From Pseudonocardia autotrophica (GTDB lineage: Bacteria; Actinomycetota; Actinomycetes; Mycobacteriales; Pseudonocardiaceae), in NCBI RefSeq assembly GCF_003945385.1, contig NZ_AP018920.1:4402001-4466000 (forward strand): a stretch of 64,000 nucleotides of DNA, given 5' to 3'. How positions within the stretch are numbered: the stretch's first letter is position 1; every line of letters starts with the position of its first letter. The position numbers and the translations under genes were made by a program. Shown piece after piece: positions 40,242 through 54,401 of this stretch. Under the pieces are notes generated by a model. It saw nothing but the letters and a program-made list of their open reading frames with translations, ran no database searches and was not told the origin of the DNA.

Positions 40242-41681
40242 TCAGGCCTCGCTGACGAGCTTGCTGAACAGGTAGTCGTCCACCCCCTCGGTTCCGCCCT
40301 CCGATCCGTACCCGCTCGCCTTGATCCCGCCGAACGGAGTTTCCGGCGCGGTCAGCATGAAGTGGTTGACCGCGAGCATCCCGGCCTCGATGCCCTCCGC
40401 CACGGCGTGCGCGGTGGACCGGTCCGCGGTGAACGCGTAGGAGGCCAGCCCGTACGGGACCCGGTTCGCCGCGGCCAGCCCCTCGTCGAGATCGCCGAAG
40501 GGCACCGCGACGGCCAGCGGGCCGAACGGCTCCTCCCGCATCACCCGGGCCTGCGGTGCGACGCCGGTCAGCAGCGTCGGCTCCCAGAAGTGGCCACCGG
40601 CACCGGGCACCGGCCCGCCGCCGGCGGCGATCTCGGCGCCGTGCTCCACCGCGTCGGCGACCAACGCGGCCATCGCGGGCGGGCGCCGCACGTGGGCGAG
40701 CGGCCCCATCGTCGTGGCCGGGTCCAGCCCGTCGCCGGGGCGGACCGTCCCGATCGCGGCGGCGAACCGGTCGGTGAACTCGTCGTACACCCCGGACTGG
40801 ACGAGGAACCGGGTTGGCGCGATGCAGATCTGACCCGCGTTGCGGAACTTCGCGAGCACCGCCAGCCGGACGGCCTTCTCCAGGTCGGCGTCGTCGAACA
40901 CCAGCACGGGGGCGTGCCCGCCCAGCTCGAGGGTCACCCGCTTCACGTCCTCGGCCGCCAGCGCCGCGATCTGCCGCCCGACGGCGGTCGAGCCGGTGAA
41001 GGTGACCTTGCGGATCTGCGGGGACCGGATCAGCCAGGTCGACACCGCCGCCGGGTCGCCGAACACCACCGACAGGACTCCGGGGGGTAGTCCGGCCTCG
41101 ACCAGGGCACCGGCGAGCGCCAGCGCGGTGGCCGGGGTCTGCTCGTCCGGCTTGATCACCATGGTGCAGCCCGTGGCGAGCGCCGCCCCGATCTTGCGGG
41201 CCGGAATGGTGATCGGGAAGTTCCACGGGGTGAAGGCCGCGACCGGACCCACCGGCTTGCGCAGCACCAGCTGCCGCACGCCCGGAGTCCGGGCCGGGAC
41301 CACCCGGCCGTAGACCCGCCTGCCCTCCTCGGCGAACCAGTCCAGGATGTCCGCGGCGCCGCGCACCTCCACGGTCGCCTCGGCCACCGGCTTGCCCTGC
41401 TCCAGGGTGGTGGCCCGGCCGATCTCGCCGGCTCGTTCGCGGAGCAGATCGGCGGCCCGGCGTAGCACCCCGTACCGGTCGTAGGCGGGGGTCGCCGCCC
41501 AGCCGGGGAACGCCGTGGCGGCCGCCTCGCACGCCTCGTCCAGATCGTCGTCGGTGGCGAGTGGCAGCTCGCCCACGGCGGCGCCGGTCGCCGGATTCAC
41601 GACCGGCCGCACCGCCCGCCCGCCGCCGCTGCGCGGTGTGCCCGCCACCAGCAGGGACAGCTCCGGATAGTCCATGCTCAC
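40242..41681 (-). CDS. NAD(P)-dependent aldehyde dehydrogenase
   Basis: A 479-residue aldehyde dehydrogenase of the succinate-semialdehyde/benzaldehyde branch. Cofactor and catalytic elements are [20 protein letters not shown] (about residue 150), FTGSTAVGR, the general-base Glu in TLELGGHAP and the nucleophile Cys in [17 protein letters not shown] at 41681 overlaps the preceding stop by GTGA, making it the last gene of the nine-gene aromatic operon. In that context it would oxidise an aromatic aldehyde such as vanillin or syringaldehyde, or a ring-cleavage semialdehyde. Sequence alone cannot decide. Confidence 0.88.
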
Positions 41682-42307
41682 GCCTTCCGGGTCGGTCGTG
41701 GGAGATCGAGGAGATCGACGGTCAGCTCGCCGGCCCGCAGCCGCTCCAGGTATCCGGCCTCGGTGCGCACCCGTTCCCGGGCGGCGTCGAGCACCGCGGG
41801 CAGCCGGTCGGCGGGCAGCACCACGACGCCGTCGCCGTCGGCGAGGACGAGATCGCCGCGGGCGACCCGGACCCCGCCGAGGCTGATCGGGTCACCGACG
41901 CCGCCCGAGTCCCGCTTGACGGTCCCGGCCAGCGCGACCGTGCTGCTCCAGACCGGGAACCCGAGCTGTTCGAGCCGCGCGGTGTCCCGCACCCCGCCGT
42001 CGATCACCAACCCGCGTATCCCCCGGCAGGCCGCGGCGACGGCGAGCACCTCGCCCCAGTAGCCGTGCGGCGCACCCGCCGCGTCGACGACGAGCACGTC
42101 GCCCTCCCCGGCGAGCTCCACCGCCAGGTGCAGCGGGAGGTTGTCACCGGCCACCGCGCGGACCGGGAACGCGGTACCGGCGACCGTGGCGCCCGGCCAG
42201 ACCGGACGCATCCGCGGGGGCAGCACGATCTGCTCGCCGGAGGCCTCGGAGACCGTGGCGGTGCCCAGCTCGATCAGCTCGGCGTGCGGGATCGGCCGGC
42301 CGGTCAC
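41678..42307 (-). CDS. RraA/HMG-aldolase-like protein, third in the tandem
   Basis: A 209-residue RraA-fold protein. The fold's DGxxRD element is VIDGGVRDTARLEQLGFPVW near residue 100, preceded by YWGEVLAVAA. In aldolase-competent relatives the Arg-Asp pair is followed two residues later by Glu or Asp; here that position is Arg (RDTAR). It may therefore not be the active aldolase. It starts with GTG overlapping the preceding stop (GTGA) and overlaps the aldehyde dehydrogenase start the same way. Alternatives are a structural partner or another lyase. Confidence 0.82.
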   Translation of the reverse strand: MTGRPIPHAELIELGTATVSEASGEQIVLPPRMRPVWPGATVAGTAFPVRAVAGDNLPLHLAVELAGEGDVLVVDAAGAPHGYWGEVLAVAAACRGIRGLVIDGGVRDTARLEQLGFPVWSSTVALAGTVKRDSGGVGDPISLGGVRVARGDLVLADGDGVVVLPADRLPAVLDAARERVRTEAGYLERLRAGELTVDLLDLPRPTRKA

Positions 42308-52294: not shown

Positions 52295-54401
52295 GCTGGG
52301 CCCGCTGCTGGCACCACGCAGCGTCGCGGTGATCGGCGCGTCCGGCACGCTCGACTCACTGCCCGGCCGGCCGGTACGCAATCTGCTCGCCGCCGGCACC
52401 GGGATCGAGGTGTTCCCGGTCAATCCCCGGCGGAACGGGATCGGCGGGCTGCGCTGCTACCCGGACGTGGCCGAGCTGCCGGTCGCGCCGGACGTCGCGC
52501 TGATCCTGACCCCCGCGGCGGCCGTCCCGGCCGCCGTCGAGGCCGCCGGGCGGCGGGGTACCGGGGCGGCCGTGGTCATCAGCGCCGGTTTCGCCGAGAC
52601 CGGCGAGGACGGCGCCCGGCGACAGCGGGAGCTCGCCGACACCGCCCGCGCGCACGGCATGCTGCTGCTCGGGCCCAACACGATCGGCCTGCACGACTAC
52701 CGGCGCGGGCTGCCGCTCAGCTTCGTCTGGACCGGGCGCACGCCGGAGCGGACCACCGGTGCGGTCGCGGTGGTCACCCAGAGCGGATCCGGGATGGCAT
52801 CGCTCTGTGACCGGCTGCTCGATCACGATCTGCCGCTCGGTCACGGCGTCGCGACCGGCAACGAGGCGGACGTCTCGGTCACCGACCTGATCGAGCACTT
52901 CGCCGAGCAGGACGACGTCCGGGTGGTCGTCACGGTGTTCGAGCAGATCCGGGACGGCGAGCGGTTCCTCGCCGCCTGCCGGCGGCTGCACGCGCTCGGC
53001 AAGCCGCTGGTCGCACTCAAGCTGGGCCGCACCGCGTCCGGGAGCTCGGTCGCGCGGTCGCACACCGGCGCGCTCGCCGGCTCCTACCCGGTGTTGCGGG
53101 CCGTGCTGCGCCAGCACGGTGTGCTGGAGGTCGACGACCTGGAGGACATCGGCCCGACCGTCACCGCGGCCCTGGCCGGCCGGTTCCCGGCGGGACGCCG
53201 GTTCGCGGTCGTCACCAGCTCCGGCGGCGCGGCGGTGATCGCCGCCGACCGCGCCGACGAGCTCGGTATGGAACTCCCCCCGTTCAGCCCCGCAGCCCGG
53301 GAACGGATCCGGCCCTACCTGCCCGACCTGGCCGCGGTGCACAACCCGCTCGATCTCACCGCCCAGGCGATGCGTCACCGGTTCGCGCTCGCCGATGTCC
53401 TCGCCGTGGCCCAGGACGGTGACGACGTCGACGCGGTACTCGTCGGGACCCCGAGCGGTGCGGGCGACTACGGACTCGCGCTGGCCGACCGCCTCGCCGA
53501 GGTGGCAGCCGCGGGGGACAAACCGGTCCTGTCGTTCATCCTCGGCGGCGAGGAGGGGGCGCCCCAGCGTCGGCGGCAGCGCGACGGCGGGCTGCCGGTG
53601 TTCCGGTCGCCGGGCGAGGCGGTGGCGACCCTGGAGCGGTTGTCCCGCTTCCGCCGGGCCCGGCCCCGGAACCTGCCGGAACCGGCCGGCGCGGCGGCAC
53701 ACGACCTCCCGAGCGGCGCACCGTCCGAGCACGCGACGCTGAGCTGGTTGCAGCGGTGCGGGATCGCCACGGTGGAGCAGCGACTCGCCCGTACCGCCGA
53801 GGAAGCGATCCAGCACGCCGGCGCGCTCGATCGCCCGGTCGCGCTCAAGATCAGCTCACCGGACATCGCCCACAAGACCGAGATCGGCGGGGTCGCGCTC
53901 GACCTGCGCGACGCCGACGGGGTCCGCGCCGCGTTCGACGCGGTGACCGGTGCCGCGGCCCGGGCGATGCCCTCGGCCCGGCTGGACGGGGTCACCGTGT
54001 CACCGATGGTCGATCCCGTGCTGGAGCTGATCGTCGGGGTGCACCGCGATCCGGACCTCGGCCCGGTGCTGGCACTCGGGCTGGGCGGGACGTGGACCGA
54101 GATCCTGCACGACGTCGCGCTGCGCGCGGTGCCCCTCGATCCGGCCGACGTCCCCGAGATGATCGACGAGCTCCGCGCGGCCGCGGTGCTGCGCGGAGCC
54201 CGCGGCCGTCCCCCGGTCGACCCGGCCGCACTCACCACACTCGTCGTCACCGTGTCCCGGATCGCCTGGGACTGCGGGGACGCGCTCACCGGGCTGGACC
54301 TCAATCCGGTCGCGATCACCGCCGACGGAGCACCGGTCGTCCTGGACGCGCTGCTGCAGCTCACCGCGACCGGCGCCGTCAGCCCCGTCGTCGGGAGCTG
54401 A
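52287..54401 (+). CDS. NDP-forming acyl-CoA synthetase, probable hydroxycinnamate activation
   Basis: A 704-residue fusion: CoA-binding domain (PRSVAVIGASGTLDSLPGRP, residues 11-30), succinyl-CoA-ligase-like domain (LLGPNTIGL, VVTQSGSGMASLC, and phospho-His candidate in VARSHTGALAG), then a C-terminal ATP-grasp domain (ALKISSPDIAHKTEIGGV). It forms acyl-CoA with release of ADP rather than AMP. Co-translation with the hydratase-lyase suggests it activates ferulate, coumarate or sinapate, as FerA of Sphingobium is reported to do. Acetate-type activity is the general family alternative. Its end overlaps the convergent CoA-binding gene by 23 nt. Confidence 0.87.
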   Translation: MRELGPLLAPRSVAVIGASGTLDSLPGRPVRNLLAAGTGIEVFPVNPRRNGIGGLRCYPDVAELPVAPDVALILTPAAAVPAAVEAAGRRGTGAAVVISAGFAETGEDGARRQRELADTARAHGMLLLGPNTIGLHDYRRGLPLSFVWTGRTPERTTGAVAVVTQSGSGMASLCDRLLDHDLPLGHGVATGNEADVSVTDLIEHFAEQDDVRVVVTVFEQIRDGERFLAACRRLHALGKPLVALKLGRTASGSSVARSHTGALAGSYPVLRAVLRQHGVLEVDDLEDIGPTVTAALAGRFPAGRRFAVVTSSGGAAVIAADRADELGMELPPFSPAARERIRPYLPDLAAVHNPLDLTAQAMRHRFALADVLAVAQDGDDVDAVLVGTPSGAGDYGLALADRLAEVAAAGDKPVLSFILGGEEGAPQRRRQRDGGLPVFRSPGEAVATLERLSRFRRARPRNLPEPAGAAAHDLPSGAPSEHATLSWLQRCGIATVEQRLARTAEEAIQHAGALDRPVALKISSPDIAHKTEIGGVALDLRDADGVRAAFDAVTGAAARAMPSARLDGVTVSPMVDPVLELIVGVHRDPDLGPVLALGLGGTWTEILHDVALRAVPLDPADVPEMIDELRAAAVLRGARGRPPVDPAALTTLVVTVSRIAWDCGDALTGLDLNPVAITADGAPVVLDALLQLTATGAVSPVVGS

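Follow-up and report, generated by a model that had tools for sequence, protein, structure and literature searches.

A 64,000-nucleotide stretch of the Pseudonocardia autotrophica genome (hereafter the window; C1:4402001-4466000 of a 7.5 Mb genome in two contigs; window GC ~73%) carried two divergent operons in which genes for hydroxycinnamate side-chain removal stood next to a predicted ring-opening module of a LigY-type hydrolase, a LigZ/DesZ-branch extradiol dioxygenase and three RraA-like proteins, together with a cytochrome P450 and an ATP-binding cassette (ABC) transporter. The balance of evidence tips towards a role in taking up and degrading a 5-substituted hydroxycinnamate; the likeliest substrate is 5,5'-diferulate, a biaryl cross-link in grass cell walls, or the dehydrodivanillin or dehydrodivanillate (DDVA) derived from it. 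Genes were called from open reading frames (ORFs) and codon-position GC analysis and assigned to families by Pfam and NCBIfam scans. These calls upheld the two operons with acyl-CoA synthetase, p-hydroxycinnamoyl-CoA hydratase/lyase (HCHL), aldehyde dehydrogenase (ALDH), P450 and LigB-family dioxygenase given in a preliminary description of this DNA, and supported its view that a hydroxycinnamate side-chain module feeds extradiol meta-cleavage in an actinomycete; that description had overlooked the interleaved ABC transporter (fused permease, binding protein and ATPase).

In the pathway we propose, the charged dimer would be imported by the ABC transporter and activated with CoA by the synthetase, after which HCHL would remove the side chain to give an aldehyde that the ALDH would oxidize to DDVA. 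The P450, replacing the Rieske enzyme LigX, would O-demethylate one ring (DDVA to OH-DDVA), the LigZ-type dioxygenase would open that ring beside the biaryl bond, and the LigY-type enzyme would hydrolyze a C-C bond to release 5-carboxyvanillate and 4-carboxy-2-hydroxypenta-2,4-dienoate (CHPD). The RraA1/RraA2 pair would then hydrate CHPD and perform the aldol cleavage that yields pyruvate, with RraA3 as a further aldolase. That the operons amount to a complete actinomycete 5,5'-diferulate pathway, with the P450 as a new DDVA O-demethylase and the RraA1/RraA2 pair responsible for both CHPD hydration and aldol cleavage, is a more tentative proposal, possible but short of probable. Among the papers listed by searches of open-licence literature (LigZ/LigY, diferulate, DesZ, syringate and dehydrodivanillate/P450), no report of such a cluster appeared.

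Ring-cleavage enzymes and the RraA module

By homology, the amidohydrolase of the window is LigY-type and not LigJ-type, which replaces the LigJ-like hydratase of the preliminary description. It shared 51% identity over 334 aa (full length) with LigY of Sphingobium (Parasphingobium) lignivorans SYK-6 versus 36% with LigJ, and among solved structures it scored 358 bits to LigY (PDB 6e6i, full length) versus 203 bits to LigJ. Residues H6, H8, H179, H223 and E282, which we take to be those of the metal site, were invariant across 12 aligned sequences. The closest homolog from a named source was that of Pseudonocardia sp. DSM 110487 (89%), and the nearest clusters were found in Pseudonocardia genomes. 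In a tree of 73 LigY proteins (for 70 of which a set of 111 had been thinned), the window sequence fell in an actinobacterial clade apart from proteobacterial sequences, LigX-linked and DesZ-type alike. LigY is described as hydrolyzing the product of OH-DDVA ring fission, in a pathway giving 5-carboxyvanillate and CHPD (PMC6874591).

The adjacent dioxygenase belongs, as judged from alignments, to the LigZ/DesZ branch and not to the gallate dioxygenases. Identity was 42% over 342 aa to SYK-6 LigZ and 39% over 336 aa to SYK-6 DesZ, a reported 3-O-methylgallate 3,4-dioxygenase, whereas the SYK-6 gallate dioxygenase protein was 28% identical over 243 aa. Scores to solved structures were 51 bits for protocatechuate 4,5-dioxygenase and 32 bits for the gallate dioxygenase DesB, and the NCBIfam gallate dioxygenase model reached 46 (cut-off 412). 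The active-site columns held the triad H12, H98 and E293, plus H189 and H256. The codon of H98 (45505-45507) falls at the position of the LigB iron ligand His61, where His was found in 19/19 loci of the window's clade and in 120/120 of the best-listed matches. Gln occupies this metal-ligand position in SYK-6 LigZ and DesZ, in 68/68 of the LigZ-like proteins from loci L017-L096 and in a further 10 from actinobacteria; on this comparison, characterized LigZ/DesZ enzymes seem to have a single canonical His ligand instead of two. A PF02900 search of SYK-6 found seven LigB-family genes. We placed DesZ by position as the protein at 2.10 Mb, the sole PF02900 gene between ~1.4 and 4.0 Mb, an interval that includes the locus tag given for DesZ, SLG_19030, in PMC12997858. 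The SYK-6 names LigXa, FerA and FerB were assigned by locus-tag order; the LigW and LigI labels were confirmed against solved structures (752 and 682 bits, respectively).

The preliminary description had proposed gallate/methylgallate cleavage. A pathway from gallate to oxalomesaconate through a gallate dioxygenase, a LigJ hydratase and an RraA aldolase would account for a LigB-family dioxygenase occurring with an RraA3 that resembles 4-carboxy-4-hydroxy-2-oxoadipate (CHA) aldolase, but we consider it very improbable and rejected it on the LigY rather than LigJ homology, the weak DesB score and the missing oxalomesaconate tautomerase. Neither LigJ nor LigI had an ortholog among the 16 PF04909 matches of the genome (29% at best for LigI), which extends the absence of LigI noted in the preliminary description to the genome as a whole. 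PrpF-type tautomerases (LigU/GalD family) gave 0 matches genome-wide; LigC, a GalB-type hydratase and further LigB-family genes were not searched for. The lack of LigJ, LigI and a PrpF-type tautomerase speaks against a route in which these known enzymes would take gallate or 3-O-methylgallate to oxalomesaconate. The gallate part of the proposal is not supported, and 3-O-methylgallate keeps some probability, the window proteins being similarly close to both SYK-6 clusters, that for DDVA and that containing DesZ.

Where the preliminary description listed an RraA aldolase, RraA-like proteins are indeed present, as three consecutive genes rather than one. RraA1 has the motif G-X20-R-D-X2-E and RraA2 the motif D-X20-R-D, letters that we take to be those of the two RraA motifs. 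The Arg-Asp pair was found in RraA1, RraA2 and RraA3. Of the NCBIfam models listed, RraA3 passed the cut-off for NF006731, and RraA1 and RraA2 passed none. Most members of the 4-hydroxy-4-methyl-2-oxoglutarate (HMG)/CHA aldolase family carry one of two motifs required for metal binding and catalysis, according to PMC5065237. Fanitsios et al. 2025 give the SYK-6 enzyme for alkene hydration as not identified (PMC12673573). RraA1 and RraA2 are candidates for the two steps that would consume CHPD in DDVA catabolism, hydration and then aldol cleavage. A specific tie of RraA2 to DDVA clusters was considered and rejected, an improved ORF call having found RraA2 in the SYK-6 DesZ cluster as well.

To judge from gene neighborhoods, LigY, LigZ, RraA1 and RraA2 form a conserved module. 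We fetched loci via LigY, 80 of them named (the 80 most similar to SYK-6 LigY among 499) and 30 actinobacterial, and counted genes in the 86 loci of at least 19 kb, setting aside 24 shorter ones; many of these loci are related. All four genes occurred together in 67/86, the SYK-6 DDVA locus included, and RraA3 accompanied all four in 55/86. In the LigY locus of genome G692 (L190), the LigY and RraA2 genes each matched in two pieces, as if frame changes interrupt them. In locus L185, P450 and HCHL were replaced, next to a LigY-LigZ-RraA1-3 cluster, by an HpaB-type hydroxylase, an FCD-domain flavin reductase, an ALDH and an FAD monooxygenase; other loci of the L179-L189 group, which comes from genomes of the window's family, had similar-sized ORFs in corresponding places, by ORF size alone.

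The P450, side-chain genes and choice of substrate

The P450 gene was linked to LigY. Of 390 family genomes, 24 had LigY, and P450 orthologs (63-73% identity, E≤1e-110) were confined to five of these 24. The P450 lay 0.2-0.3 kb from LigY in three of the five; the distance was 3.4 kb in the window itself and 7.9 kb in the Pseudonocardia-related genome G699. Chance would give this five-of-five co-occurrence with a probability of 6e-7 if genomes were independent, which they are not, as all five share one genus. The Pfam and NCBIfam scans found no Rieske (LigX) gene in the two operons, with the P450 in its place. The heme motif read FGKGAHACIG. In the I-helix, the window P450 and its orthologs in L175, L176, L177 and L190 read AGNITT, in which the usual acid of the acid-alcohol pair is missing. 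The G699 ortholog shares 14 bp with a convergently oriented gene whose product scored 436 bits to the solved structure of a 5-carboxyvanillate decarboxylase and 434 bits to LigW2. G699 (L175/L199) had four LigW-type matches, three of them at 7.45-7.73 Mb, a region that also contains its LigY cluster (7.57 Mb). Across the family, 6/21 genomes with LigW also had LigY (LigY overall 24/390), which is at most suggestive; about half of the 21 LigW matches were distant (44-47%).

The side-chain genes point to a hydroxycinnamate as the entry substrate. The window HCHL scored 318 bits to PDB 2j5i and shared 53.6% identity with the SYK-6 HCHL near ligW and 44% with FerB, which lies beside a FerA-type ligase. 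The synthetase, 35% identical to a SYK-6 ligase adjoining an HCHL (~2.69 Mb) that was taken as FerA, is probably FerA-type on its NDP-forming architecture and its pairing with HCHL. Counting shared contigs, matched by their length, rather than gene distances among the best 120 matches listed per search, LigZ or LigY matches lay on 10/35 contigs of at least 10 kb carrying one of the top 73 HCHL homologs (own genome included), against 0/9 in lower rows. The association extended to several actinobacterial families, with examples in Leucobacter sp. wl10, Herbiconiux daphne, Nocardioides hungaricus and a Nitriliruptoraceae bacterium, for which the organism names agreed as well, and in L169, from a genome of another family, HCHL was immediately upstream of LigY. 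ALDH homologs of 56-61% identity were found in the LigZ/LigY loci L024, L025, L027, L049 and L170-L172; in L024, L027 and L172, the loci scanned for it, a thiamine pyrophosphate (TPP)-dependent enzyme occurred alongside the ALDH homolog, as would be expected if the ALDH oxidizes an aryl aldehyde arriving by either route.

Elsewhere in the genome there was an adjacent intradiol dioxygenase gene pair at C1:1504754-1505781, pcaGH-like by arrangement, together with one VanA_C protein and one UbiD. The intradiol pair and the VanA_C protein could form an onward route for vanillate, and in this LigW-less strain the single UbiD is perhaps the handler of 5-carboxyvanillate. A UbiD family enzyme has been proposed for 5-carboxyvanillate in Paenibacillus (PMC12673573).

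Several observations weigh against a DDVA pathway with the P450 as its O-demethylase. The module was incomplete in 19/86 of the long LigY loci (10 with LigY and LigZ, 5 with LigY alone, 2 with LigY, LigZ and RraA1, and 2 with LigY, RraA1 and RraA2). The window LigY-like protein was slightly closer to the DesZ-linked SYK-6 paralog, LigY2 (54%), than to LigY (51%), and a tree of 101 dioxygenases set the window enzyme in a 20-row actinobacterial clade outside the SYK-6 LigZ and DesZ clades alike, so the substrate is not chosen by sequence alone. Three of the four other P450 loci carried a LigXa-like Rieske gene (32-41%) in addition to the P450, which therefore need not be the O-demethylase. No P450 redox partner was present among the 12 genes of the two operons, and the regions inspected at those four loci held no HCHL or synthetase homologs. 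Finally, LigW had no ortholog in the window's genome (~29% at best among the 16 PF04909 matches), and at E≤1e-70 it was detected in 1/5 of the P450-bearing genomes, G699, leaving the other four, the window's included, without.

The preliminary description had preferred sinapate/syringate. On that account, side-chain removal would give syringaldehyde, the ALDH syringate and the P450 3-O-methylgallate, which a DesZ-type enzyme would open to CHMOD; the LigY-like protein would then serve as a methyl-esterase, followed by hydration and aldol cleavage by the RraA proteins. We hold this to be unlikely, if well worth weighing: SYK-6 has a parallel LigY2-DesZ-RraA1-RraA2 cluster (DesZ placed by position) to which the window proteins show the identities given above, RraA3 exceeds the CHA aldolase cut-off, and the genome is without LigW. 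Yet the CHMOD hydrolases named in PMC12314914, DesC and MgaC, are alpha/beta hydrolases and not LigY homologs, and orthologs of LigJ, LigI and the PrpF tautomerase are absent from the genome. The LigY homology points to the DDVA route, as do two neighborhoods: a LigX-bearing locus of Sphingomonas vulcanisoli (L049) that shares the window's parts list, and the 5-carboxyvanillate-type decarboxylase gene abutting the P450 ortholog in G699. On balance, we moderately favor 5,5'-diferulate/DDVA over sinapate/3-O-methylgallate.

Somewhat less probable again is another 5-substituted (C-linked) ring of the protocatechuate type, for instance another ferulate dimer or other biaryl, for which the logic of ring opening and hydrolysis would be unchanged. 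Entry enzymes are swapped in related clusters (HpaB-type with a flavin reductase in L185, TPP-dependent in L172, L024 and L027), and the clade of the window's LigZ-like protein stands apart from the two characterized ones, as this alternative would allow. Against it, linkage of HCHL and the NDP-forming synthetase favors a hydroxycinnamate, though the 5-substituent is not fixed thereby.

Operon layout and neighboring features

The minus operon (50009 to 40242) ran in the order permease, binding protein, Amidohydro_2 protein, LigB-family dioxygenase, ABC ATPase, three RraA-like proteins and ALDH, and the divergent plus operon (50217 to 54401) in the order P450, HCHL and NDP-forming acyl-CoA synthetase (Table 1). 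Neighboring genes overlapped by 4 bp in the minus operon and by 19 and 38 bp in the plus operon; the minus-operon pattern was broken by gaps of 28 bp between dioxygenase and amidohydrolase and 47 bp between amidohydrolase and binding protein. The true start of the fused permease is probably internal to the called ORF. Its homolog in G699 was 81% identical; in three class-level relatives the figure was 59-60%.

Table 1. Features of the two divergent operons, in window coordinates
Feature	Position	Strand	Evidence or remark
Aldehyde dehydrogenase, probable aryl-aldehyde dehydrogenase (putative role)	40242..41681	-	PF00171
RraA3, 4-carboxy-4-hydroxy-2-oxoadipate aldolase-like	41678..42307	-	NF006731 187.8 bits, cut-off 179
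RraA2, motif D-X20-R-D, candidate HMG aldolase	42304..42951	-	49% to SYK-6 gene directly before ligY
RraA1, motif G-X20-R-D-X2-E, candidate CHPD hydratase	42948..43622	-	43% to SYK-6 gene directly after ligZ
ABC ATPase	43619..44776	-	ABC_tran + TOBE_2; 74% in G699
LigZ/DesZ-branch type II extradiol dioxygenase (predicted)	44773..45798	-	PF02900 62 bits
LigY-type meta-cleavage-product hydrolase (predicted), amidohydrolase superfamily	45827..46825	-	51% to SYK-6 LigY over 334 aa
ABC solute-binding protein	46873..48030	-	SBP_bac_1/6/8; 70% in G699
Fused ABC permease with two BPD_transp_1 stretches; opens the minus operon	48027..50009	-	Pfam/NCBIfam, PhnU2-like
Divergent promoter region	50010..50216	.	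207 bp between operons; AT-rich imperfect dyad, candidate operator
Cytochrome P450, candidate aryl-ether O-demethylase (putative reaction)	50217..51461	+	PF00067
p-Hydroxycinnamoyl-CoA hydratase/lyase (HCHL)	51443..52294	+	NF006588 381 bits, cut-off 276
NDP-forming acyl-CoA synthetase, FerA-type architecture	52257..54401	+	ATP-grasp_5, Succ_CoA_lig, CoA_binding_2

The candidate operator in the intergenic region is an AT-rich, 42-bp imperfect dyad (50016-50057) with the core GAATCCAATTGGATTC at 50029-50044. This core matched once in the window and in 0 of 100 shuffles, and was not found in the loci of the 12 relatives checked; the window held 23 perfect palindromes of at least 14 bp, five of which exceed the dyad core in length. 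ARAGORN called a tRNA-Arg (CCG) at 53570-53660(+), inside the acyl-CoA synthetase gene, which is probably a false positive given the GC-rich coding sequence. Downstream of the ALDH, a malate dehydrogenase gene had no homolog in the fetched LigY loci.

Comparison with known systems

Biochemical knowledge of the LigZ/LigY biaryl pathway comes mainly from SYK-6, and C-C-linked phenolic dimers resist chemical depolymerization; if the favored assignment to 5,5'-diferulate or DDVA is true, a wider range of bacteria would be known to digest some of the toughest lignin-type links. A conserved actinobacterial module with two or three RraA genes supplies named genes for studying how soil actinomycetes use such dimers, and the RraA pair between ligZ and ligY of SYK-6 makes the question of the CHPD hydratase directly testable. 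Both the O-demethylases (LigX, other Rieske enzymes, P450) and the entry enzymes (HCHL, TPP-dependent enzyme, HpaB) appear to be swappable around the module.

The DDVA locus of SYK-6 has the order ligZ-RraA1-RraA2-ligY, to which the window homologs show 42/43/49/51% identity, and both systems have an HCHL gene (near ligW in SYK-6) and dedicated transporters. SYK-6 has the Rieske enzyme LigX, DdvK/DdvT and LigW, whereas the window has a P450 and an ABC transporter, with no LigW in the genome, and places HCHL and the synthetase in the P450 operon, unlike the SYK-6 DDVA locus. The SYK-6 DesZ cluster holds the same four gene families (LigY paralog-DesZ-RraA1-RraA2) at similar identities; unlike the window, it showed no HCHL, P450 or ALDH homolog in the ORFs called over 35 kb. 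For the mhqRPOD DDVA cluster of Paenibacillus sp. B2, demethylation, extradiol cleavage and C-C hydrolysis have been proposed, as we propose for the window, with different enzymes: the azoreductase MhqP, MhqO with <15% identity to LigZ, and the alpha/beta hydrolase MhqD (PMC12673573).

In gene content, the closest analog of the whole cluster is the 13 kb S. vulcanisoli locus, known here from its genes, which encodes LigXa (60% to SYK-6), a synthetase (35%), an HCHL (57%) and LigY-LigZ-RraA1-RraA2-RraA3-ALDH (ALDH 56%), with FAD-binding, thiolase and CoA-transferase genes nearby. It thus presents the catabolic parts list of the window with LigX for the P450. Relative to the known pathway, what appears new in the window is a candidate O-demethylase of another class, an actinobacterial host and hydroxycinnamate entry within the cluster.

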